Positions 2,834-34,923 of a stretch of DNA of 34,923 bases are shown piece by piece. The position numbers and the translations under genes were made by a program. Source of the stretch: a virus; the IMG/VR virus record IMGVR_UViG_3300044712_002652, positions 1-34,923 of that record. One strand, 5' to 3'. Every line of letters begins with the position of its first letter. Position 1 is the stretch's first letter. Below the pieces are notes generated by a model. The model saw only the letters and a program-made list of their open reading frames with translations. It was not told where the DNA came from and ran no database searches.

Positions 2834-2938
2834 GGGGTGGGGGGATCGGTAAGTGGCTGAAAAATTCTGAGCAGGTTTGTAGAAATGCTCAAAAATGAAC
2901 GGACGGTTTGAAAAATTTTGTATGTTTGGACGGTGAAA

Positions 2939-5900
2939 ATGACGGTCAATTATGAACAATTCATTGAGGATGTGCGGAACGCGAATCCGATTGAGGATGT
3001 GATCCAGAGCGCGGAGTTTGGGGGCGTGCAACTGGAGCGGGGATCGCATTTGTTGACGGCGACGCACCATGATAGTTTGAAGGTCAGCATTGATTATCAA
3101 AATTATCATTGGTATTCCAAAGAGGGAAGTGAGAAATTTTGGAAAGGCGACGTATACGCATGGGTGCAGATGCAATGCGGCTGTGATTTCATGGAAGCGT
3201 TGCGGAGACTGGCTGCTCGGGCGCGGATGGAGATGCCGCGCCTGGATGAAGAGACGAAGATTAAGTTTGCGGCAGTACGTTTGACTGAGGACGCTTTTAG
3301 CGTTGCGACGAAGATTTTTGCGGAATGGCTTTGGAAAGACGAGGCGGCTCTGGCTTACACACGCGGGCGCGGCTGGATGGATGAAGTGATTTGTTTATCC
3401 GTTACCGCTGATGAAGCATTACGAGAAAACGCGCCTTATAAATTTTTACCTGAAACCATGAAGGCAGCTGAAAAATTAGTCAAAGAGGGGAGCGGGTTTG
3501 TAGTTATTGCAAGTGGAGCAGGGTTGGGGTTTGCTGGGCGCGGGACGCCGCAAGAATATGAACAGATGAGGAACGCGCTTGCTGCTGCTATTGATATTCA
3601 TTCACCGGCGGCGGTGGCTTTGCTTGGGCTACGCGGCGGGGTGAAGGCATGGGGCGAGGCGCGCGGGATTGACGTTTCTAAATGGGTGGAGAAGGACAGA
3701 ATTCCATCCATGTTGGGATGGGCTAATAATTGCGGATTGATTTATCCGTTTGTCGAGCGCGGAAAAACCGTGACATTCACGCGCAGAAATTTGTTATGGG
3801 GTGAAGATGGGAAGATTGTTGGAAACGATGAATGGAAAAGTTATAACCTGCCGAAAGAGTTAATGGGCGGGATGCGGTTATATCGTAACCGCGTATGGTC
3901 AAAGCATACGGAACGAGAAATATTTGTCGAGGGTCCCGCGTGCGCGGTGACTTTCCTGCAATGGGAAATGCAGCGAAAAGCGCTGCTGAAAAAATATCGG
4001 GATGAGAAAAAAGACGCGCCGATTTGGTTGGAATCCATGCCGGAAATGTCTGCTACTGCTATCAATGGGAAGGAGTGGCACGGCTGGGCGGATGAAATCG
4101 GGAAGGAAACAAAGGCTGAGGATGGTCACGAGTCAAGTTTTATCGGCTTTGACAGCGATAAAGCGGGGAAGTCGCCATTGAAGGGCGAGCGTGGAAATGA
4201 GTTTGAGTTGGCTGAGAAGGTCGGAGCGTTGACGCGCGTGTTGGAGTTTCCCGAAAAGGACGCGAATGATTGGTTGAAATGGATGGTCAAGAGCGGCATA
4301 TCGGTGGAAGACCAATTGGAATTAGTAAATCAACAATTGGGAAACGCGAAGCCGATGGCGATCCATGCGGCGCGGTGGATGGGGGAACAGCGGAATGAAG
4401 ACCAATTGAAGAAAGCGGCGGTGCGCGTGGCGCGGATTTTGAATTCGCTGAATGGGGTGGATGTGCAATTTTATATGAAGGATTTATTGAAGGCGCTGGC
4501 TCCGCTGGTTGGGGATGACGGGCAAAAACTTTATGGAACAAAGCGCGACGTTGACCAGTGGCTCGGCAAGGTGAAGAAGGAAGAAAAGGGGAACGGGAAA
4601 AAAGAAGATAACGTTGAGTATAGTTTCGGCGGGCGCAAGGGGAAGTGGCTTCTGGAATATTGCTATAACCCTGAGACCGTGAAGGCGCATTGGGCATACC
4701 GCGACCCGGATGGGAACGTGGATGAAAAAGACGAGGTGCTGATTGATGGGATTATCCAGCGCCCCAACCCGCCTGAGCAAAATAAGATGATTACCGGCGG
4801 ATCCATTTTGTTTCCGTCTGGTTTGGCGCGAAATAAAGACGGAAGTATTGACCGAAAATCAACGAAAGAAATTGTAAATAAAATGTCTTCTGAATTCCGA
4901 TTAGATTACATTTTCGAGGAGCATAAATGGTCAATCCTTTCCGCGTATTGGGTGATGGGAACGTGGGCTTACGATAATTTCCATGAATTGGTCTATCTGC
5001 GGATGGTGGGCGATGCGGGCGCGGGGAAGTCTGCGCTGCTGAATTTGTTGATGTGGACGAGTTATCGCGCGATCAAAATGAGCGGCGCGGACAGTGATGC
5101 TACATTTTTTCGCATTGCGGATGAATGCCAGGGAGCCATGTTTTTTGAAGAGGCTGATTTTGACGAAAAAACGGGACCGGAAAACCCAAAAATAAAATTT
5201 ATAAATTTGGGCGCGTTCGACGGGAATCCAATTTATCGTTTGGAGGAGTATTACAAGCCAGACGGCACAAAGGGCTGGCGGGCGACTCCATACAATACGT
5301 ATTGTCCAAAGGCTTTTGCGATGCGCGGCGATTTTATGGATAATGCGGTGGCTTCGCGCTCGATCACCATTAAATTGACCGCGGCTGAGACATCCACCAT
5401 GAAAGAAAATAATATTTCATGGCGAATGACCGACGAGATGAAGCGAAAACTTTTACACCTGCGCAATTTATGTTTGACGTGGCGGCTGTATGAATATTCC
5501 TTCGAGGAGCGCGAGTTGGGATGGGATTTGATTGATACAGATATTCCGATGCGATTGAATCAGGTGACTGCGCCGTTGAAATCTTTAGCGAAAAATATCG
5601 ACGGCAGCAAGGATGAAGAATTTCTGAATCAAATGGAGGTTTTACTGCGCGAGCATTACCAAGATTTGATCGGGGACGCTTCAATTTCATGGCAGGCGCG
5701 AACGGCTGAAGCGTTGTGGAAGATTTATACGCTTTCGGATTTACAAGAGCGCATGGATATTGCAAATGACGGCTCGATATTGATTAAGGTTGGAGATGTG
5801 ACTGCCATCGTGAATAATATCGCGGACGAGATGAACGATGAGGGGTCTGATCTGCGCGTGCAAAAAGTGGAATATGAAACCATCAAGGGCGCGGATGGGG

Positions 5901-6238
5901 AGGAGAAGACGATTGAAAAGAAGCGCCATAAGAAAGAATTCGAGAAAGGCGCGCAGAGCATTGGTCATATTTTGCGGAAGGATTTTCAGTTGGAGTTCCC
6001 ACCACGCAGCGGGACTAAAGGCTATCGTGTGAAATGGGACGACGCGAAGATGACGGCAATTGGGAAGAAATACGGATGCCTGCCTGCGACAGATGTGATT
6101 GAAAAGGCAAAACAGGCTCTGGCTGGGCGGCGGGGCGGGATGCCAGAGAAAAAGAAACCTGAACAGGCGCAGATGACGACGGTCTTGGGGAGACCGATGT
6201 ATAAAAACGAGGCTGGGGAGTGGGTGGAAGGGGAGTGA
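2939..6238 (+). CDS. primase-helicase fusion protein
   Basis: A 1099-residue replication protein. Residues 1-100 resemble the CHC2 zinc-finger region of DnaG-type primases in layout (HWYSKEGSEKFWKGDVYAWV corresponds to the usual YHCFGCGxGGDV stretch), but the zinc-binding cysteines are missing. A Toprim-like middle follows: EIFVEGPACAVT, then GFDSDKAG with its D-x-D pair, then KDANDWLKW. The C-terminal half is an SF3/DUF3987-like or DUF927-like ATPase with Walker A GDAGAGKS at about 691-698, Walker B-like AMFFEEADFDE and a possible arginine finger in ASRSITIKL. It would unwind the template and make primers for the phage's own replication. ATG 2939 is preferred; earlier in-frame starts have no ribosome site. 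Candidate origin sequences lie on both sides. Confidence 0.85.
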   Translation: MTVNYEQFIEDVRNANPIEDVIQSAEFGGVQLERGSHLLTATHHDSLKVSIDYQNYHWYSKEGSEKFWKGDVYAWVQMQCGCDFMEALRRLAARARMEMPRLDEETKIKFAAVRLTEDAFSVATKIFAEWLWKDEAALAYTRGRGWMDEVICLSVTADEALRENAPYKFLPETMKAAEKLVKEGSGFVVIASGAGLGFAGRGTPQEYEQMRNALAAAIDIHSPAAVALLGLRGGVKAWGEARGIDVSKWVEKDRIPSMLGWANNCGLIYPFVERGKTVTFTRRNLLWGEDGKIVGNDEWKSYNLPKELMGGMRLYRNRVWSKHTEREIFVEGPACAVTFLQWEMQRKALLKKYRDEKKDAPIWLESMPEMSATAINGKEWHGWADEIGKETKAEDGHESSFIGFDSDKAGKSPLKGERGNEFELAEKVGALTRVLEFPEKDANDWLKWMVKSGISVEDQLELVNQQLGNAKPMAIHAARWMGEQRNEDQLKKAAVRVARILNSLNGVDVQFYMKDLLKALAPLVGDDGQKLYGTKRDVDQWLGKVKKEEKGNGKKEDNVEYSFGGRKGKWLLEYCYNPETVKAHWAYRDPDGNVDEKDEVLIDGIIQRPNPPEQNKMITGGSILFPSGLARNKDGSIDRKSTKEIVNKMSSEFRLDYIFEEHKWSILSAYWVMGTWAYDNFHELVYLRMVGDAGAGKSALLNLLMWTSYRAIKMSGADSDATFFRIADECQGAMFFEEADFDEKTGPENPKIKFINLGAFDGNPIYRLEEYYKPDGTKGWRATPYNTYCPKAFAMRGDFMDNAVASRSITIKLTAAETSTMKENNISWRMTDEMKRKLLHLRNLCLTWRLYEYSFEERELGWDLIDTDIPMRLNQVTAPLKSLAKNIDGSKDEEFLNQMEVLLREHYQDLIGDASISWQARTAEALWKIYTLSDLQERMDIANDGSILIKVGDVTAIVNNIADEMNDEGSDLRVQKVEYETIKGADGEEKTIEKKRHKKEFEKGAQSIGHILRKDFQLEFPPRSGTKGYRVKWDDAKMTAIGKKYGCLPATDVIEKAKQALAGRRGGMPEKKKPEQAQMTTVLGRPMYKNEAGEWVEGE

Positions 6239-6515
6239 ACAGATGAACAGTTTAGCCCGCTGGCGACAAAAACAATTTTGTTTTGTCGCGGGACGCAAAA
6301 AGTGTTCATCTGTTCATTTGGGCGCGATTCTGGGCGTTTTTGGGCGTTTTTTCGCTATTTTTACTGAAAAAGCCTTGTTTAGTTCGTTAGTTAGTTAGTG
6401 TATAGATGATGATGGATGAATATATATAGGTTAGTATGCGCGATTTTGCGCTGTATCAAGTGAACAGATGAACAGTTGTTTTTTGAAGTGTTCACTGCAT
6501 TTGCTAAAGTGTTCA
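6234..6515. repeat. iteron-like cluster of TGAACA hexamers (candidate origin or centromere)
   Basis: TGAACA or its complement occurs eight times: + strand at 6236, 6244, 6461 and 6469; - strand at 6303, 6311, 6489 and 6510. The first and second + pairs belong to an exact 19-base direct repeat, AGTGAACAGATGAACAGTT (6234-6252 and 6459-6477). Paired hexamers are eight bases apart; the last two are 21 bases apart, two helical turns. An AT-rich stretch with GTTAG repeats and TATATATA lies between the two repeats. This fills most of the 365-base gap 6239-6603, which has no credible gene. Such layouts are known from iteron origins and from partition centromeres. Confidence 0.7.
6236..6316. repeat. 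nested inverted repeats (14-bp outer, 9-bp inner)
   Basis: TGAACAGATGAACA at 6236-6249 is perfectly complementary to TGTTCATCTGTTCA at 6303-6316. Nested inside, GCGACAAAA (6263-6271) pairs with TTTTGTCGC (6281-6289). The outer left arm includes the stop codon of the primase-helicase. Two copies of the decamer TGGGCGTTTT follow in tandem at 6331-6350. The structure could be a cruciform, a dimer-binding operator or an RNA hairpin at the end of the replication transcript; no T-run follows the outer stem. Confidence 0.75.
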
Positions 6516-6603
6516 TTAAATAATTTACCCGCCTATCATGGTGGAGTGTCTAGGTCAACCACGACCGGCGGGCGAGTGAAAGTATATCAAAAAAGGAGTG
6601 TCT

Positions 6604-7623
6604 ATGAGCAAGTTACAGGTTACAAGTTACAGGTTGCAGGTTTTGTTGGCGGTTAGTTTGGTTTTGACCAGCTGTGCGGATATGCGAGCGCGGGCGGCGC
6701 AGGATGGGTTGTCTGGTGTGACGGCTTCTCCAGTGGCGACGGGGACTCCTACGGTTGGCTGGCAGGCGACTGCGCAAGCAGCGCAAGCAACGGCGGATGA
6801 GGCACGGCGGGTGAATGCGGCGGCGACTGCCGAACATGAGCGTTATTTGGGGATTGCCATCGAGGGCACAAAAAGCGCGAATGAGTTGGAGTTGGCGCGG
6901 GTGTGGCAGACGGCGACATTTGCGCCCACGTCTATTCCGCTGACTGCAACGGCTCAGGCGAACCACGACCAGCAAATCCTTGCCGAACAGCGATTGATTT
7001 ACACAAAGATTACGCAAACGGCTGAGGCTCCGCGCAGGTTGATCGAGATGAAGGTTGCCGAGGTGTATGACGCGCGGGTAGATTTTTATTTGCGGATGTT
7101 TGCGTATGGCGCGGTCGGATTCTTTTTGATTGCCATTCCGCTTGTCTTCTTTGTGGCAAAGAGGACTCCGCCGGTAATTATCCGCGAGGTGGAAAAGCCT
7201 GCGCCGATGATGATGGTGAACCAGGGTGAAACGGTGATTCATTTGCGCGATGAAAATGATGGATTTGTATCCATGCGGCGGGTGGTGGCGCCTTGTTCGG
7301 CAGGGATGTTGACTGAATTTGCTGAAGGGATCATTTCAGGCGATAAGACCACTTCTTACGAATATTGGGCGCGCGTTCCGTGGTCGCATAAAAAATATTC
7401 CGCGTTTCGCGCCTGGCTTACCGATAAAAAAATAAATTATGCAATTTTGAGCGACAGCACAGGAGAAATTACTATCAACGAAGATGGAAAGAAGTTCTTA
7501 CGCGGATGGCTGGAGACGCGCCAATTGCCCGCGCAGATGGATTTTGGTCTTGAGGATGATGACGCAGAATTGCCGGTGATTATCCCCAGCGCGACAGATA
7601 AATTGACAGCAGTGAATTCATAA
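6604..7623 (+). CDS. putative lipoprotein with internal membrane segment
   Basis: A 339-residue protein. The N-terminus is a hydrophobic signal ending in a lipobox-like LVLTSC, so it may be lipid-anchored. Residues 30-150 are rich in Ala and Thr and largely helical. A membrane segment follows at about 166-186 (YGAVGFFLIAIPLVFFVA), and the C-terminal 130 residues look like a folded domain, probably cytoplasmic. The start ATG 6604 has AAGGAG five bases upstream. The signal peptide is encoded by a 14-base tandem repeat (6611-6638). It stands between the iteron region and the actin-like gene, so a role as membrane anchor in partition or phage positioning is possible. No family is recognised. Confidence 0.72.
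   Translation: MSKLQVTSYRLQVLLAVSLVLTSCADMRARAAQDGLSGVTASPVATGTPTVGWQATAQAAQATADEARRVNAAATAEHERYLGIAIEGTKSANELELARVWQTATFAPTSIPLTATAQANHDQQILAEQRLIYTKITQTAEAPRRLIEMKVAEVYDARVDFYLRMFAYGAVGFFLIAIPLVFFVAKRTPPVIIREVEKPAPMMMVNQGETVIHLRDENDGFVSMRRVVAPCSAGMLTEFAEGIISGDKTTSYEYWARVPWSHKKYSAFRAWLTDKKINYAILSDSTGEITINEDGKKFLRGWLETRQLPAQMDFGLEDDDAELPVIIPSATDKLTAVNS
6611..6638 (+). repeat. 14-base tandem repeat inside signal peptide
   Basis: AGTTACAGGTTACA is followed at once by AGTTACAGGTTGCA (13 of 14 bases the same) and then by GGTT. Similar GTTACAGGTT tandem tracts are scattered as non-coding repeats in many bacterial genomes. Here the tract encodes the n-region of a signal peptide, KLQVTSYRLQV. Confidence 0.7.
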
Positions 7624-7648
7624 ACAAAAATAAAGGAGAATAAATAAC

Positions 7649-8641
7649 ATGGCTACAAAACTTGGTTTGGATATGGGACGTTCGTCAGTAAAGGTTACAG
7701 GGGCGGCGGGAAATATTTTGTTTCCCAGCCTGGCGGCATTGCCCGGTGGAAATAGCGCGGAGTTGGTGAGCCGCTCGAAAAAGAATCGCCCGATGTTGAT
7801 CGGCTTGGACGGGCGCGAGTTGTTTGTGGGACACAACGCGCACCGCGCTGGCATTCAGCCGCTGGAAAATTTTTCGATGGATCAATTGACGGATGCGACT
7901 ATCGAGATGCGCGCAATTTTGGCAGGGACGTTGACGGCGTATCAGCGGAAGTTTGGCGAGTTTACCGAGCCGCTGGAAGTGGTGGTGGGATTGCCGTATC
8001 AGTTGTTGGATGGGGATAAAGAGCAGACTGATAAATGGAATCGCCAAGTTAAGGGGTGGATTGGCGGGGCGCATGAATGGCTGGCGGACGGGAAGGAACT
8101 ATCCGCGACGATTGTGAAGGTGGGGCTTGCGCCGCAGGCGTTTGGGGCGCAAACGGATTACGTGTTTGGGATGGACGGTAATCCGATTGACGAGGCGCGG
8201 GCGCAGGTGATGAAGCGCGAGAACGGCGCAATTTCCATTGGTTCGTCCACTGTGGAAACACAGGTGACGTGGAAAGATATTGATACGCGGCGTTATTGCG
8301 GCGGGAAGCCGATTGGCGCGCGCTGGTTGAAGTCCGTTTCGGATCCGCGCGACCGATATTATTTTGGCGAGTGGAGCGAATTGTTGCAGGCGGGCGAATT
8401 GCCGGAACAATTCAGCGTGACTCCATATCTCGACTCGTGGTGGACTGAGGTGGATCGTTTTTTGAATGAGAAGTGGCGCGAGGATTGGGAGCGTTTCTCG
8501 AAGATTTTCGTGGTGGGCGGCGGGGCGATTCTGTTGAAGGATCACCTGGCGCGGAAGTTCAACGGGCGCGCGGTGTTTTTCGACGATTCGATTATGCCGA
8601 TTAGCCGCGGCCTATATAAAGCGGCGTTGAGGATGAGGTAG
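7649..8641 (+). CDS. actin-like ATPase (ParM/Alp-type)
   Basis: A 330-residue member of the actin/Hsp70 ATPase superfamily, most like ParM, StbA and phage Alp proteins. The phosphate-1 loop is LGLDMGRSSVKV (about 5-16), the phosphate-2 loop is AISIGSSTVETQV (about 194-206) and the adenosine motif is VVGGGAILL (about 288-296). VVVGLPYQLL (about 110-119) fits the strand before the family's central segment. Such proteins form filaments that push plasmids apart or position phage DNA. ATG 7649 has AAAGGAG upstream. A small gene follows seven bases later, as the adaptor parR does in ParM operons. The phosphate-2 loop has SSTVET in place of the more usual GGGTTD-like form, so the protein is a diverged member. 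Confidence 0.87.
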   Translation: MATKLGLDMGRSSVKVTGAAGNILFPSLAALPGGNSAELVSRSKKNRPMLIGLDGRELFVGHNAHRAGIQPLENFSMDQLTDATIEMRAILAGTLTAYQRKFGEFTEPLEVVVGLPYQLLDGDKEQTDKWNRQVKGWIGGAHEWLADGKELSATIVKVGLAPQAFGAQTDYVFGMDGNPIDEARAQVMKRENGAISIGSSTVETQVTWKDIDTRRYCGGKPIGARWLKSVSDPRDRYYFGEWSELLQAGELPEQFSVTPYLDSWWTEVDRFLNEKWREDWERFSKIFVVGGGAILLKDHLARKFNGRAVFFDDSIMPISRGLYKAALRMR

Positions 8642-8647
8642 GTTGCA

Positions 8648-8923
8648 ATGGCGAGACATAAGAATGCTGTTCCATCAAGGCGAATGGAATTGAATGTGAG
8701 AGTGCCGCAACCGATTACTGATCCGCGCATACAAAAAGCGGTAGATTGGGTGATCGAGATGAATAAGAAAAAGAAGGCTGCTCCGATGGCTTGGGCTCTG
8801 CTGGTATCCGCTTTGAATGGGGAGTTGGGGGACGGCGTGCAGGCTGCGGTGGAGGCTGGCGCAAAATCCGCTGATGAGGCAGTGAAGGCATTGGAAGATG
8901 CTATTGAGACATGGATCAGTTGA
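8648..8923 (+). CDS. putative partition adaptor (ParR-like position)
   Basis: A 91-residue protein with a basic N-terminus, a short strand (MELNVRVPQP) and then helices, ending in an acidic helix. A short basic N-terminal strand followed by helices resembles small ribbon-helix-helix adaptors such as ParR. It lies seven bases after the actin-like gene, exactly where ParR genes sit. The assignment rests on position and general shape, not on a clear family motif. If correct, it would bind a centromere (candidates: the TGAACA cluster at 6234-6515 or the palindrome at 8961-9049) and cap actin-like filaments. Confidence 0.55.
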   Translation: MARHKNAVPSRRMELNVRVPQPITDPRIQKAVDWVIEMNKKKKAAPMAWALLVSALNGELGDGVQAAVEAGAKSADEAVKALEDAIETWIS

Positions 8924-8960
8924 ATTATTAACCGCCAAATTGAATTTAACCGCCAAGAAA

Positions 8961-11070: not shown

Positions 11071-12054
11071 ATGGCGAAGTTGATGGATGAAGTTCAAAAT
11101 GCTTTGCGGGTTCAGAGATATGCCTATAAAACTGAAATCCAATATATGAATTGGATTCGCAGATACGTGCGTTATTTTTTGCCCAAACATCCGCGCGAGA
11201 CGGGCGTGGAAGGCGTGCGCGAATTTACGACTCGTTTGGCGGTGGATGAAAATATTTCACCATCTACGCAAACTCAATGTCTGGCTGCGCTGACATTTTT
11301 ATATAAGACGCTTGGCATTAAGTTGGGCGATATTGGCATGGTACGCGCCAAAAAAGATAAACTTCTTCCGTTTGTCTTGACCGAGGAAGAGACAATGAAT
11401 CTATTAATGAATTTAAGCGGCGTTTATCGCATTATGGGCGAGATCATCTATGGCGGCGGTTTGCGATTGATGGAATGTTTACGGCTGCGCGTGAAAGATG
11501 TTGACCTGGATAATTTGTCAATTACCCTGCATGAAACAAAAAGCAATCGCGACCGCGTAACGTGCCTGCCATCTTCGGTAACACCGATGTTGAAATTGCA
11601 CCTGGCGAAAGTAAAGGCAATACACACAGAAGACCTTGCAAATGGAATGGGACGCGTCGAGATGCCGTATGCGTTTGACCGTAAATCGAGCAATGCAGGT
11701 TTGGAGTGGGGCTGGCAATATGTCTTTCCGGCGGCTAGATTTTCCAAAAATCCGCGCACAGGCGAGAAAGGTCGTCATCATATTTATGAAACGAGTTTAC
11801 AGCGAGCCGTAAAAGAAGCGGCAACGGCGGCAAGGATTTCAAAACCGGTTGGAGTTCATACACTGCGGCATTGTTTTGCGACGCATTTGTATAAAAACGG
11901 AACGGATATTCGGACAATACAGGAGTTGCTTGGACATCAAAAACTTGAAACGACAATGATTTATGTGCATTTACTCGGGGGCGCGGCAGTTAAGTCGCCG
12001 TTGGATCGGTTGACTGCTAATCCGCTTATACGGCAGGTAGTTGTAGAATCATGA
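11071..12054 (+). CDS. intI: integron integrase (IntI)
   Basis: A 327-residue tyrosine recombinase of the integron class, which captures and excises gene cassettes at attI and attC sites. Catalytic residues are R132, K157, H263, R266, H289 and Y298. From memory of IntI1 (R146, H277, R280, H303, Y312) each lies exactly 14 positions earlier, so the spacing is identical. The integron-specific insert is present: FDRKSSNAGLEWGWQYVFPA, then SKNPRTGEKGRHHIYETSLQRA, which matches ERKYPRAGHSWPWFWVF and RRHHMYDQTFQRA of IntI1. Ordinary Xer proteins lack it. GAGGTGA precedes ATG 11071. It points towards the cassette, the arrangement of so-called reverse integrons, and GTTAGAC begins at the base after its stop. 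Confidence 0.94.
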   Translation: MAKLMDEVQNALRVQRYAYKTEIQYMNWIRRYVRYFLPKHPRETGVEGVREFTTRLAVDENISPSTQTQCLAALTFLYKTLGIKLGDIGMVRAKKDKLLPFVLTEEETMNLLMNLSGVYRIMGEIIYGGGLRLMECLRLRVKDVDLDNLSITLHETKSNRDRVTCLPSSVTPMLKLHLAKVKAIHTEDLANGMGRVEMPYAFDRKSSNAGLEWGWQYVFPAARFSKNPRTGEKGRHHIYETSLQRAVKEAATAARISKPVGVHTLRHCFATHLYKNGTDIRTIQELLGHQKLETTMIYVHLLGGAAVKSPLDRLTANPLIRQVVVES

Positions 12055-13600: not shown

Positions 13601-14298
13601 TGACTATTTCAGCGTCTCCAAGTCAATTGAAATTCGAGTGGGACCTTCCAGAGGAAGAGTCCACTTCCGCTTTAAGCGCGGAAGAAATTCAACTGCGGAA
13701 GGATTTGGCTGAGGCTTTTATCTATAACCCCGAACATTGGGAAAAAGATGATCAGGGCAAACCCGTAAAACCCTATTGGCTTGAGCAAGCCACGACCTTG
13801 CGCGAAGGCAAAATGCGTTTCCCGTTCCGCGTAGCGGTCTTGACTGCCTGGTTATGCACGCCGAAAAAATACCGCTTCCCGAAAACGCAGGATGAATTGG
13901 CGAATATGCTCGGTCTGAGCAGCGACCGCGTGTTTACCGTCTGGATGGCGAAAAATCCGCAGATTAAAGCGGTAGTGCATAGCGCCTGGCGCGAACGCGT
14001 GTTGGATCATGTCAATGACAGTATGGAGGCAATGTTTGAGGTTGCCGCGCAACCCGATTACAAAGGACATGGCGACCGCGAGTTGCATTTCAAAGTTGCG
14101 GAAATCTTGACCGATAAAGTTATCCTGGACAAGACCGGCAATGTTGATCTAACCAAGTTGACATTTGAAGAAAAATTGAAACTGGCGGGCTTGGATGATC
14201 CAGACGCGCTGCTTGCATTGAAGAAAGAATTATTGCAAAACGATCTGGAACTTGAAGTCACTGCCGAGGATGAAGGCGATGCTGCCAGCGACGCTTAA
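13600..14298 (+). CDS. putative small terminase subunit
   Basis: A 232-residue protein placed directly before the large terminase. A helix-turn-helix is visible in the stretch TQDELANMLGLSSDRVFTVW (about 104-123), fitting a DNA-recognition subunit that marks the genome for packaging. The acidic C-terminus (about 175-232) may contact the large subunit. ATG 13600 is chosen over GTG 13597 because it forms the TGATG overlap. Its end overlaps the large subunit by about 20 bases. The assignment rests on position and the helix-turn-helix. Confidence 0.78.
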   Translation: MTISASPSQLKFEWDLPEEESTSALSAEEIQLRKDLAEAFIYNPEHWEKDDQGKPVKPYWLEQATTLREGKMRFPFRVAVLTAWLCTPKKYRFPKTQDELANMLGLSSDRVFTVWMAKNPQIKAVVHSAWRERVLDHVNDSMEAMFEVAAQPDYKGHGDRELHFKVAEILTDKVILDKTGNVDLTKLTFEEKLKLAGLDDPDALLALKKELLQNDLELEVTAEDEGDAASDA

Positions 14299-15835
14299 TG
14301 TCACCCGCGAGGAGGCGCGCGCGGAAGTGGGGCGCGTGCTGTTGGCGCGCGAATCGCTGGCGTATTTTGCCGAATACGTGAGCATGGATGATGAGGGAAA
14401 TAGTTGGTACACGGCATACAAAATGCACCAATTGATAGCGCATGAGTTGGAGCAGGTTTTGCTTTACATCGAGAGCGGAGGCAAAAAAGGCACGCAGTTT
14501 TTGATGGTCTTGACCCCGCCCCAGCACGGCAAGTCCGCGCTTATCTCGCGCATGTTCCCGGCGTTCGCCATTGGAAAACTTCCCAATTTGCGCGTGTTGG
14601 AAATTTCATACGGCGCGGACTTGGCGAGCGAGCATAGCAAATTCGTCCGCAATTTAATTTTGTCGGACAGATATAAATCGGTGTTCGGGAAATTCTCGCC
14701 GAGCGAAGAGCCTGTCGCATTGGCGCAGGATAGCAAAGCGGCGGCGGCGTGGGATTTGGCTGCGCCTCATCGCGGCGGGATGATTGCCGTGGGCGTGGGC
14801 GGCGCGGTTCCTGGTCGCGCAAAGGGTCTGGTCGTTTGGGATGATCCAATCAAGGGACATAAAGAAGCGCAGAGCAAAGACGTGCGCGATGACGCCTGGG
14901 ACTTTTACGTTTCCGCGTTGCGCGTGAGAACCATCGCGGGCGTGCTGGTGATGACGCATTGGAGCGACGACGACCCCGCGGGCAGAATTATGAAACAGAT
15001 GGTCGAGAAATCGAACAGCGACCAATGGAAAATTTTATGCCTGCCGGGACTCATCGAAGAGAATATGTTTGCGGCGGATAAAGAGGAACAGCGCAAGAAA
15101 ATGCTCGAAGGCGTTTACCTGCCGCTGCGCGATCCGCTAAAGCGAAAAGTGGGAGAAGCGCTTTGTCCTGAAATTTTATCGAAAGCGGAGATGTTGAAAA
15201 TCCGCGAGCAGAGCGATTTTTATTTTTCGGCTTTGTACCAGCAGCAGCCGTATCCCAAAGACGGACAGAAATACAAACGCGCATGGTTCGAGACGGTGAA
15301 GAAAATGCCGGATGATTGCAAAATAAATTTTGCGGTACGGTATTGGGATAAGGCGAACTCGAAGCGCGGCGATTACACCGTGGGCGCGTTGATGTGCTAT
15401 TGCAGCAATGAGTTTTTTTACCTGCTGGATATTGCGCGCATTCGGGATACATCTTATGGGCGCGATGAATTTATGAAGAAGGTTTCGGCACAGGACGCGC
15501 AGACGTATGGCAATGTGAAAATCTGGCACCAGCAGGACCCGGGACAGGCTGGGAAGGACGCGGCGGAAGCAACCAATAGAATGTTGATGGGCTATCCGGT
15601 GAAGTATGAAACCGTCAGCGGCGATAAAGCGGCGCGTTCGGAAGGATTGGAATCCGCGTTTCAGGGCAAACATATCCTGCTCATCGAAGGCAATTGGAAT
15701 GAGGCGTTCATCAGCGAGTGCGTTGCTTTTACCGGCATGGATGGCGGTCACGACGACCAGGTGGACGCGGCGAGCAGCGCGTATCATAAGTTGATCCAAA
15801 TGATAGGAAAGCACAAGAAGAGCAAAATTCTATGA
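14279..15835 (+). CDS. terL: large terminase subunit
   Basis: A 518-residue packaging motor, ATPase plus nuclease. Walker A is TPPQHGKS (about 79-86, lysine K85), Walker B is VVWDDP (D188, D189) and a coupling motif is MTHWSDDD. The nuclease half shows D357 in RYWDKANSKRGDY and D492, D493 and D496 in HDDQVD, the RuvC/RNase-H-like acidic set. The PPxHGKS motif is typical of the phage_term_2-type terminases. The ATG 14279 is preferred because GAGGA lies eight bases upstream; ATG 14270 and TTG 14252 in the same frame are less well placed. The last four bases overlap the portal start (ATGA). Confidence 0.95.
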   Translation: MLPATLNVTREEARAEVGRVLLARESLAYFAEYVSMDDEGNSWYTAYKMHQLIAHELEQVLLYIESGGKKGTQFLMVLTPPQHGKSALISRMFPAFAIGKLPNLRVLEISYGADLASEHSKFVRNLILSDRYKSVFGKFSPSEEPVALAQDSKAAAAWDLAAPHRGGMIAVGVGGAVPGRAKGLVVWDDPIKGHKEAQSKDVRDDAWDFYVSALRVRTIAGVLVMTHWSDDDPAGRIMKQMVEKSNSDQWKILCLPGLIEENMFAADKEEQRKKMLEGVYLPLRDPLKRKVGEALCPEILSKAEMLKIREQSDFYFSALYQQQPYPKDGQKYKRAWFETVKKMPDDCKINFAVRYWDKANSKRGDYTVGALMCYCSNEFFYLLDIARIRDTSYGRDEFMKKVSAQDAQTYGNVKIWHQQDPGQAGKDAAEATNRMLMGYPVKYETVSGDKAARSEGLESAFQGKHILLIEGNWNEAFISECVAFTGMDGGHDDQVDAASSAYHKLIQMIGKHKKSKIL

Positions 15836-31974: not shown

Positions 31975-33957
31975 ATGATAGTGAATGACACTCAAAAGGG
32001 AACTCCCTTTGTAAATTATACAGGGACAAAAGCGGCGATTGAGGCGTTGAGCGGAATCGCTGAAGGGGCGACGGCATACGCGACTGACACTGACCAGCCA
32101 GGAAATTACACAGGCGCGGCTTGGAAATGGACGGCGCAAATTCCTGTATCCAGCACTGATGTGGCTATGCCGAAAATCGGAAGCCCGACAATTGATAATC
32201 TTGCGGAAGATTTTACAACTCGCGGAAGCGCAGGAGTCATTGATGGGACGCTGACCTACATCGAGGCGGATACTGGAACGTTCAAGGTAAAAGTAAACGC
32301 GGGCGAGGGATATATTAGAACATCCAACGACCAGCAAGCGGAACTAAAAATTATTACATGGAGCGCAGTCACTCAAATTGACATCCCCGCGCCAGCGGCG
32401 GGTTATGAAACTTTGCGCTACATCGGCATTGAATATAACGCTGGAAGTCCACAAGTGACGGTTCGCACGACATTCAATTGGAACTGGCATAGCGATTTTC
32501 CGCTTGGCAGAGTTTCAGTTGACGCGCTGGGTGTGATGCACATTTTGAACGCATACGCACACTCTGAGGATGTGTCAAATCTCACGCGTAAATGGATGCG
32601 GCTCAATTTTCCATTTCATAGGGAGGAACCGCCTGAGGGTTCGGGCGGAATTGTAATTGGCGAAACCGGAACGCGAAACCTAACATTATCAGCCGGGTAC
32701 GTTTGGCACGGCTTTAACCGCTATTATGTCCCCGCGAGAGATACATCAGGCACAGATAGATTTGATTTGCTTTATCGCAGAGCGGGCGGAGGATTTACAG
32801 GCACAGCCTCAAATTCCCAATGGCCAAATACGCAATACGACGATGGAAGCGGAACGCTGGCAACAATGACAGTCGGACGTTACGCATGTCTATGGATATA
32901 TCTTGACCTTGCCGAAGATACAGGCGGCATACCGGGATTCGATGTGGTTTATGGTCGTGGTCAATACACAACATCAATTCTTGCAGAAGCGGAAGCCGCA
33001 CCCACCATACCCGAACATCTTACATATCATGGAAGATTGATAGCGAGGTTGATTTTCAAAAAATCAGACGCGACCGCTACGCTGATTGAATCTACGTGGA
33101 CGACCAGTATAGGCACAACGCCTATTTCAGACCACGCGCAGTTATCAAACCTACAAGGCGGAACAGCAGGTGAGTATTATCACCTTACTTCCGCACAGGC
33201 AACTGACCTTACAGATGCGGGAGAATCAGCGCTCCATTATCACCAAATGGGAGCGGGAAATAACAGTTACTTCTTCGGAATAAACGACGCAACCCGCGTT
33301 TATCTCCCCACACCTACCGGCGCGGAATATGCGAGGTTTTTTAAGTTAGTCGCATCCTCAGACCCGCTATCCAAAATTCAAGCGGCAGATTGGCTGGGAA
33401 CATCTGCCACATATCTACAAGCCAAATCGTTAGGGTGCAGCGCAACGGTTATTACAGCGGCATCCGGCACGCCATTTACAGCAGATATGAAATACTGTGT
33501 CATCAAACATGCGTCCACATCCAACGGCGTAACCAATGCGGGCGTAAGTATTGTCAAAAGCGTTGATAGTTCAACGCAGTTGACCATTGAAAAGGTATCC
33601 GGCACAGATTTTGCCAATAGTTATTATTTCTACATCTCCCACAACGAATGGATTGTGCCAACAACAGGCATTTATCTTATAACCACAAAGTTATACCTAA
33701 ATGCGCCAGTTGACTTGCGTAATTATTTTTACAGCGGATGGTCAGCCGCGAACGGAAGCGCGCCTGCGCGTAAGTTCCTAGTCGCCCTGCAATCAGCCGG
33801 AACGTCAGACATGGCGCAGCCTGTCACGAATATGGTTTCCCTCACAAAAGACAATTACTTTTTTATTGCCGGTTCCACAACCGACACCACGAAAGGAACA
33901 AATATGTTTGAAAGTCTCGCAACCATAGACCTTATGCTACTCAGGCAAACGGCATGA
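31975..33957 (+). CDS. tail fibre protein
   Basis: A 660-residue, beta-rich protein. The N-terminus (NYTGTKAAIEALSGIAEGATAYATDT, followed by YTGAAWKWTA) is a common opening of fibres that attach to a tail tip. The middle includes DHAQLSNLQGGTAGEYYHLTSAQ, a fibre repeat motif, and the C-terminus looks like a receptor-binding or C1q/TNF-like beta domain (IPTTGIYLITTKLYL). ATG 31975 is one base after the previous stop. Compared with the genes before it, the coding strand looks less G-rich and more A- and C-rich, which fits a module acquired separately. Confidence 0.82.
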   Translation: MIVNDTQKGTPFVNYTGTKAAIEALSGIAEGATAYATDTDQPGNYTGAAWKWTAQIPVSSTDVAMPKIGSPTIDNLAEDFTTRGSAGVIDGTLTYIEADTGTFKVKVNAGEGYIRTSNDQQAELKIITWSAVTQIDIPAPAAGYETLRYIGIEYNAGSPQVTVRTTFNWNWHSDFPLGRVSVDALGVMHILNAYAHSEDVSNLTRKWMRLNFPFHREEPPEGSGGIVIGETGTRNLTLSAGYVWHGFNRYYVPARDTSGTDRFDLLYRRAGGGFTGTASNSQWPNTQYDDGSGTLATMTVGRYACLWIYLDLAEDTGGIPGFDVVYGRGQYTTSILAEAEAAPTIPEHLTYHGRLIARLIFKKSDATATLIESTWTTSIGTTPISDHAQLSNLQGGTAGEYYHLTSAQATDLTDAGESALHYHQMGAGNNSYFFGINDATRVYLPTPTGAEYARFFKLVASSDPLSKIQAADWLGTSATYLQAKSLGCSATVITAASGTPFTADMKYCVIKHASTSNGVTNAGVSIVKSVDSSTQLTIEKVSGTDFANSYYFYISHNEWIVPTTGIYLITTKLYLNAPVDLRNYFYSGWSAANGSAPARKFLVALQSAGTSDMAQPVTNMVSLTKDNYFFIAGSTTDTTKGTNMFESLATIDLMLLRQTA

Positions 33958-34202
33958 ACGCCATAGATATTTTTCGCGCGCGCACAGCCTTCGGAATGGC
34001 AATGTCAGAAGATATAAAATGGCAGGTTATCAAAGCCTATCGCAATGACTTGCTGACGCAATCTGACTGGACTCAGTTGCCCGATGCAGCGCTAACCAGC
34101 ACAGAGCAAACAGCCTGGCAGAATTACCGCCAATCCTTGCGAGACATCCCCCAAAATTACGCGATCCCCGACGAAGTTATTTTTCCAGAGATTCCAACAT
34201 GA
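33954..34202 (+). CDS. tail-fibre assembly chaperone-like protein
   Basis: An 82-residue protein. The stretch NDLLTQSDWTQLPDAAL, followed by WQNYRQSLRDIPQNY and ending with PEIP, matches the small phage tail assembly chaperone family (Phage_tail_APC) found after fibre genes. It would assist folding or assembly of the fibre before it. The start overlaps the fibre stop (ATGA), and the stop overlaps the next start. Confidence 0.82.
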   Translation: MNAIDIFRARTAFGMAMSEDIKWQVIKAYRNDLLTQSDWTQLPDAALTSTEQTAWQNYRQSLRDIPQNYAIPDEVIFPEIPT

Positions 34203-34381
34203 GCAACGATAAAAAGATTTTAGGCGCGCAAAAGAAAGCCGAGCGCGAGAAAGCCGCCAATCTGCTGGCAGAGTTGAAAGATAAAACCATATCAACAATG
34301 AGCAAAGCGGAAATTGATAAATTGATAACTGCGCTTTGTTTGCGACTCGGAATTGCAGATGTGACTGGAAAGATTAAATAA
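34199..34381 (+). CDS. hypothetical small helical protein
   Basis: A 60-residue, charged, helical protein (KKILGAQKKAEREKAANLLAEL at the N-terminus) with coiled-coil character and no recognised family. The ATG start overlaps the previous stop. A short palindrome, CCCGC-GAGA-GCGGG, follows at 34390-34403. It probably closes the tail cluster. Confidence 0.6.
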   Translation: MSNDKKILGAQKKAEREKAANLLAELKDKTISTMSKAEIDKLITALCLRLGIADVTGKIK

Positions 34382-34425
34382 GTTTATCAACCCGCGAGAG
34401 CGGGAATTAAATCAAGGAGTTTGAG

Positions 34426-34923
34426 ATGTATAACGATAAGTATGTATTTGAATTCAAGACGGCTGAGGTTCTGCGGATCCAAAATATGGCGACCCTGACA
34501 GCTGCCATATTTGCGCAGCATAACGACAATGGCAAGCGCCACCTGCGCAAAGACTGTGATGCCACGCTCAAAATTCTGCGCGAGGCGGAGGCGTTTGTCA
34601 ACGCGAACATTGGCAAGACGCGGAAGGGAATCCCGACTGTGTATGATGTCCGCAAGAACGTTCACAACTTTGCGAATCCGCCATTTCGCCCGGATGATTT
34701 GACCGAGTATCGTCTCGCCCGCGCGGTCGAATCGCTGGAACATATCTATACTCAGTTCAATGTCGCCGAGCAAGCCAAGACGGTTAATGTCGTTTTGCAG
34801 AACACGAACGGCGGCGGAAAGGTCAAGGCTGAGTTGAAGGTCTCGGAGATGTACGACCGCGTGAGGTTTGTCCTTGCAGCGCTGCGGGATAACGTGCAGT
34901 TCTGGGATGAGCAGATCAAGTAA
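34426..34923 (+). CDS. hypothetical protein, 165 residues
   Basis: A soluble, mostly helical protein with a middle beta part (TVNVVLQNTNGGGKVKAELKV). No family is recognised and there is no signal peptide or membrane segment. AAGGAG precedes ATG 34426, after a short gap. It ends exactly at the window end with TAA and is therefore complete. It may start a new functional block, such as lysis or lysogeny, that lies beyond the window. Confidence 0.72.
   Translation: MYNDKYVFEFKTAEVLRIQNMATLTAAIFAQHNDNGKRHLRKDCDATLKILREAEAFVNANIGKTRKGIPTVYDVRKNVHNFANPPFRPDDLTEYRLARAVESLEHIYTQFNVAEQAKTVNVVLQNTNGGGKVKAELKVSEMYDRVRFVLAALRDNVQFWDEQIK

Follow-up and report, generated by a model that had tools for sequence, protein, structure and literature searches.

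What purpose might be served by a dense cluster of repeats lying between a primase-helicase gene and a set of partition genes in an uncultured phage? The window, by which we mean the whole stretch of DNA analysed, is an IMG/VR virus record of 34,923 bases, and the cluster occupies positions 6234–6517. The original prediction proposed either a replication origin or a parC-like centromere for this region, and hence a plasmid-like life of the phage. Considering the repeats, their conservation in relatives and the alternatives weighed below, we conclude that 6234–6517 is very probably the replication origin of the phage, bound and opened by the adjacent primase-helicase.

Repeat architecture and its conservation

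All repeats named in the original prediction were recovered. Eight TGAACA/TGTTCA hexamers start at 6236, 6244, 6303, 6311, 6461, 6469, 6489 and 6510, and these are eight of the 15 copies in the whole record, gathered in 283 bp, with the other seven scattered; in 2,000 dinucleotide shuffles of 6234–6516, the commonest hexamer that was not AT-rich reached a maximum of five copies, compared with the eight observed. None of 2,000 such shuffles produced a 19-base repeat like the direct one present at 6234–6252 and 6459–6477. A perfect 14-bp inverted repeat (6236–6249 and 6303–6316) encloses a 9-bp stem (6263–6271 and 6281–6289), and the palindrome at 6233–6320, folded as single-stranded DNA, gave z = -7.5 against 200 shuffles. 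Two TGGGCGTTTT decamers follow at 6331–6340 and 6341–6350 (+ strand), and the AT-rich core at 6378–6437 (unstranded), presumed to be a DNA unwinding element, has, by nearest-neighbour energy, the weakest duplex of any 60-bp stretch in the 34,923 bases. The description of the region as the only long gap was slightly too strong, because two further gaps of 275 and 280 bp exist, although 6239–6597 is the longest gap between ORFs taken as genes up to 15.8 kb.

Read as iterons, the hexamers form an ordered series. Pair A (AGTGAACA GATGAACA, direct, 6234–6249, + strand) overlaps the stop codon of the primase-helicase, and pair B (6303–6318, − strand) is inverted relative to it, the two pairs making the arms of the palindrome on either side of the inner hairpin GCGACAAAA/TTTTGTCGC (6263–6289, unstranded), which is built around an A-tract/T-tract. 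A degenerate pair C (AGTGTATA GATGATGA, 6397–6412, + strand), missed in the first reading, has the same offsets as the third pair of the close relative L004 and exactly matches it in position. Iterons D1 and D2 (AGTGAACA GATGAACA, 6459–6474, + strand) are direct, and D3 (6489–6496, − strand) and D4 (6510–6517, − strand) are inverted. Paired hexamers are separated by two variable bases (GA, AG or AT in the window group, with L004–L006), so the repeat unit is better written as the octamer (A/G)(A/G)TGAACA.

Searching with the adjacent primase-helicase yielded 17 relatives, three close ones (L004–L006, about 71% identity to the window over the primase-helicase protein alignment) and 14 distant ones (roughly 24–37% protein identity in the best segments). 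The counts given here refer to 18 elements, namely the window, L004–L006, L017–L025, L028, L031 and L039–L041; duplicate records of L004, L005 and L017–L025 (L015, L016, L027, L029, L030 and L032–L038) and pattern-match loci (L001–L003 and L007–L014) were left out. In L004–L006 none of the eight hexamers is lost, and the AT core and nested palindrome are likewise retained; the TGGGCGTTTT decamers are not, and as such they are not conserved in relatives. An iteron cluster lies downstream of the helicase gene in 17/17 relatives, and its start is no more than 80 bp from the helicase end in 16 of the 18 elements; in L021 and L028, other sequence intervenes and the cluster is displaced by about 0.4 and 1.2 kb after the helicase stop, respectively. 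Phages carrying the same replication gene and lacking the repeat cluster, which the original prediction had named as counter-evidence, did not occur among the 17 relatives found.

Neither a nucleotide search of phage records with 2918–8923 nor a protein search of phage records with the window's primase-helicase gave a match. The L020 helicase had one fragmentary match in phage records, Virus Rctr41k; a score scan over 12.3 kb of it showed other repeats at its start and no cluster after the helicase match. Against plasmids, the L017 helicase gave primase-type matches covering at most 43% of the query among the best 20 of 52. Scans of genome contigs found no relatives, and hence no cultured host or genome. 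Exact terminal repeats of 99–127 bp were present in three of the five relatives' records checked (G004, G005 and G007), which fits genomes that are complete and possibly circular; in the window, no exact terminal repeat of at least 10 bases is present.

With sites placed by eye and degenerate ones included, ten sites could be located in 14 of the 18 elements at near-constant spacing, with a total span of 272–320 bp. Their order is pair A, direct and overlapping or near the helicase stop codon, then an A-tract/T-tract within the palindrome, pair B inverted, pair C direct, the AT-rich core and four D sites, the D1–D4 steps being 22/9/12 bp in 8/9 GTGA-type elements and 23/8/12 in L025. Four elements, mostly of the TATGAAC type, fit the plan only partly (L023, L039, L040 and L041). 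Spacing and orientation stay while the letters are exchanged between elements (GTGAACA, GTGAGGGT, TATGAACA and GGAACTTT); by group, the iterons read AGTGAACA in the window group, GTGAACAT/GTGAAGAT/GTGAGGGT, TATGAACA and, in L017, GGAACTTT, which stands at 10/10 sites with the plan kept. Mean octamer identity was 0.82 within an element versus 0.67 between elements, values uncorrected for the relatedness of the elements.

A letter-blind score, counting near-identical 8-mers per 370 bp, was run along each locus, with the scored segment shifted to the previously seen cluster in L021 and L025. The region topped every other segment of its locus in nine of the 18 elements, and in the record's own locus 0 of 377 other segments scored at or above it. 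Segments equal to or above the region numbered one in each of L018 and L019, three in L040 and 7–15 in L022, L024, L031, L039 and L041. In L028, the helicase-adjacent stretch fails the score (85/91) because the cluster is displaced, and the top segment of that locus is the displaced cluster. The pair A/B palindrome beat shuffles (at most 4/200 as good) in 15/18 elements, the exceptions being L022, L039 and L041.

Ten of the 17 relatives carry a further perfect palindrome, TTGTC(A/T)GACAA, as a single copy per locus next to the last iteron (L004 at 11485, L005 at 11477, L006 at 7280, L019 at 11353, L020 at 11284, L021 at 6069, L024 at 8602, L025 at 5799, L028 at 4639 and L031 at 8147); the window and the remaining seven lack it. 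The palindrome is possibly a site for another regulator or a host factor.

The presumed initiator and a model of its action

The gene at 2918–6238 (+ strand) encodes a primase-helicase with a DnaG-like zinc-binding fold, a Toprim region, a P-loop helicase and a predicted C-terminal winged helix. It matched DNA primase in PHROG (E 1.2e-06) and, below the curated cut-off, TIGR01391 dnaG (E 2.3e-06); Toprim and primase/helicase families were matched in relatives, through which the Toprim region of the window was named. Foldseek with the full-length model, a poor one (pLDDT 57), returned the DnaG zinc-binding domain 1d0q (E 2.9e-03). Pfam matched no helicase family, and profile searching against solved structures was unproductive; the P-loop GDAGAGKS is visible in the alignment, after the N-terminal primase part. 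The primase half of the window's protein also contains an insertion of about 40 residues (approximately 3392–3514), absent from L004–L006 and from the distant relatives aligned. L018–L025 encode primase and helicase in two overlapping ORFs; the window, L004–L006 and L017 have them as one chain.

The presumed iteron binder is the predicted winged helix at 5687–6076 (+ strand), modelled from 18 aligned relatives; the model, built from 18 sequences, covers the final 228 residues with a mean pLDDT of 79. In VIA-align, many of the best rows for this C-terminal model were winged helices, including ORC/Cdc6 initiators on origin DNA and CRP-type regulators, with a best Z of 7.0, a level that can mean a common fold only. 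Foldseek on the same model returned IpaD-type helical matches (TM about 0.2), which were judged meaningless, and Foldseek alone was uninformative. The P4 origin-binding domain, whose structure we take to be 1KA8, was not among the matches listed by Foldseek or VIA for the C-terminal model, which is no evidence against it. The modelled winged helix fits an iteron-binding initiator.

The claim of a replication origin is thus well supported by computation: the repeat cluster tracks the adjacent helicase in 17/17 relatives, its geometry is kept where the letters differ, it contains the weakest duplex of the record, and a winged helix is predicted at the C-terminus of the helicase. From these features we infer binding, melting, loading, priming and a direction of replication, and we have proposed a model for the process. 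The C-terminal winged helix of the primase-helicase would bind the short iterons (A/G)(A/G)TGAACA, and the initiator would be held in opposed orientations on both sides of the AT-rich core. Assisted by the cruciform-capable palindrome, the bound protein would distort and melt this core; the primase-helicase would load itself as helicase rings on the single strands, and its DnaG/Toprim half would prime synthesis.

The GC-skew check around 6300 suggested in the original prediction gave no support, as the cumulative skew keeps climbing past 6.3 kb at a steady rate and does not turn until about 32.5–34 kb. The genes taken as real all lie on the + strand, and the test is either unfavourable or uninformative. 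The skew itself drops to zero and below only at 32500–34500.

Partition genes and alternative functions

An actin-like (ParM/ALP) partition gene forms a separate module at 7649–8641 (+ strand; Pfam ALP_N, E 5.7e-13; PHROG partition protein, E 1.6e-21), together with a small possible ParR-like adaptor at 8648–8923 (+ strand), which has similar proteins in L006, L021 and L025 and no family match in Pfam or PHROG. The ParM-like gene is present in 16 of the 18 records with the cluster, and plasmid-like life of the phage is therefore plausible; of the two records without it, G015 is 22.7 kb long and G002 stops shortly past the origin. Directly after the adaptor gene, TTAACCGCCAA occurs twice, 18 bp apart (8928–8938 and 8946–8956, + strand). 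Such TTAACCG-type pairs adjoin the par module in 10 of the 15 ALP-bearing loci examined (the window, L004, L006, L019, L020, L021, L023, L025, L028 and L041); L024 has one copy, L018, L031 and L040 have a TTAACAACC form, and L022 has no clear pair beside the module. In relatives the usual distance between the two copies is 27 bp, and a conserved TGCGTGCGCTCGGA stretch and GTGGGGGAG often come after them. When the TTAACCG region was folded as a consensus RNA, no base pair was predicted, and the one Rfam match, elsewhere in the record, was judged to be chance. Because these different repeat pairs lie beside the par genes, a centromere is more likely at 8928–8956 than in the iteron cluster.

The centromere half of the original prediction, unlike the origin half, was not supported. 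Repeat arrays are typical of parC, and the region lies 1.1 kb upstream of a ParM-like gene that accompanies the cluster in most records. However, the distance to that gene varies, from 1.1 kb in the window to about 1.6 kb in L004, 3.4 kb in L006 and 3.3 kb in L019, whereas the cluster stays close to the helicase end, and the ParM-like/adaptor module is adjoined by its own, separate TTAACCG-type repeats. It is thus very unlikely that the iteron region is the parC-like centromere of this module. The clustered inverted sites, with TTGTC(A/T)GACAA after the last iteron in 10/17 relatives, do look regulatory, and initiator autoregulation could exist alongside origin function; a repressor operator array controlling the downstream operon is nevertheless highly improbable as the explanation of the region. 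The directly downstream genes differ between relatives and the upstream helicase does not, no promoter-like site was found in 6150–6650 with the sigma-70 consensus only, and ten sites with an AT core would go beyond normal operator design.

An attachment (attP) or packaging site has hardly any probability in our estimate, although the phage encodes two tyrosine recombinases and attP can be flanked by arm-type repeats: the integrase genes (1–954 and 11071–12054) are not adjacent to the region, the terminase starts at 14252, and the cluster goes with the helicase rather than with the integrase. The two recombinases differ from each other within one phage and could serve integration or multimer resolution; the second has a counterpart of up to 60% identity in the relative L020.

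A candidate replicon type and its nearest known systems

Taking 6234–6517 as a replication origin, we regard it as an evenly balanced question whether these elements form an undescribed replicon type of tailed phages, probably phage-plasmids, in which a satellite-style, self-loading primase-helicase, with no detectable relationship to P4 alpha, would act on a fixed ten-site origin. The letters appear exchangeable wholesale with no change of spacing or orientation, so that, on this proposal, the geometry of the origin would evolve separately from the specificity of the initiator. A literature search, with most subscription journals outside its reach, found no paper on such an origin type. If the proposal is true, uncultured phages would provide a compact two-part replicon (gene plus adjacent origin of about 285 bp), as well as a naturally occurring set of origins that share their geometry and differ in recognition letters. 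Co-change of the initiator winged helix and the iterons would then be directly testable, as would spacing versus sequence in helicase loading, and satellite-type replication would be joined to actin-like partition in free-standing phages.

In the available part of PMC4234260, ORF904 of pRN1 is described as a primase-helicase with a C-terminal winged helix and a required origin 3' of its gene, a stem-loop of about 100 nt. The winged helix (predicted in the window) and the origin 3' of the gene are points of likeness; pRN1 differs in its archaeo-eukaryotic primase and, as far as that text goes, in an origin without iterons, whereas the stem arms of the window are iterons. SaPI Rep and SCCmec Cch2 both act on iterons directly 3' of their genes via C-terminal domains, Cch2 being a helicase that binds direct repeats with an AAGTG iteron (PMC7581432, accessible sections). 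These five letters recur within AAGTGAACA of L004–L006; the SCCmec system differs, as described there, in that its iterons number just three, its primase partner is of another kind and its ori is putative. Gram-negative PICI origins are reported always to have two sets of iterons, with an AT-rich region between them, and a PICI rep-ori segment replicates a plasmid (PMC6092414, in part). As far as these sources describe them, an ori directly downstream of the helicase gene and two iteron sets flanking an AT-rich region are shared by SaPI/PICI and the window, and the C-terminal domain with which SaPI/PICI Rep recognises iterons would have its counterpart in the predicted winged helix. This likeness lies in the layout and in the presumed binding domain, and the window differs in its own terminase and in the ParM-like gene found in 16/18 records. 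Nor does it look like a helper-dependent satellite, as it carries a terminase large subunit at 14252–15835, followed by an array of long ORFs.

P4 alpha, like the window protein, is a Toprim-type primase plus helicase, and it binds repeats by a winged helix, then unwinds and primes (PMC4234260, available part). The type-1 repeats in crr and ori of the P4 record X51522 are mostly TGTTCACC, i.e., GGTGAACA, a core sharing 7/8 letters with AGTGAACA of the window. This core is identical at 11/140 placed sites, in seven elements; six of the ten window sites match it at 7/8 or better, against a background of 23 of 34,622 positions, and 0/10 sites do so in L017. P4 crr also sits immediately 3' of the alpha gene; it contains A-tract/T-tract stretches, and its paired iterons are spaced by 9 bp. 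In contrast, P4 has two separated sites, with ori at least 2 kb from alpha, and is an 11.6-kb satellite, whereas the window, a 34.9-kb record, encodes a terminase of its own and has one compact cluster; no second separated cis site (ori plus crr) was found in it, with 8/15 TGAACA copies in that cluster and the other seven scattered. By hhalign, A5 and A3 against P4 alpha gave Prob 0.5 and 6.4, respectively, and profile similarity did not extend past a weak N-terminal stretch; the template was a single sequence, which makes for low sensitivity. Because alpha homology is undetectable, the cis sites form one cluster and the terminase is its own, the window is not filed as a member of P4 or PICI. 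By analogy, its logic is the same as that of P4 alpha/crr/ori and SaPI/PICI Rep-ori, which are its closest known systems.
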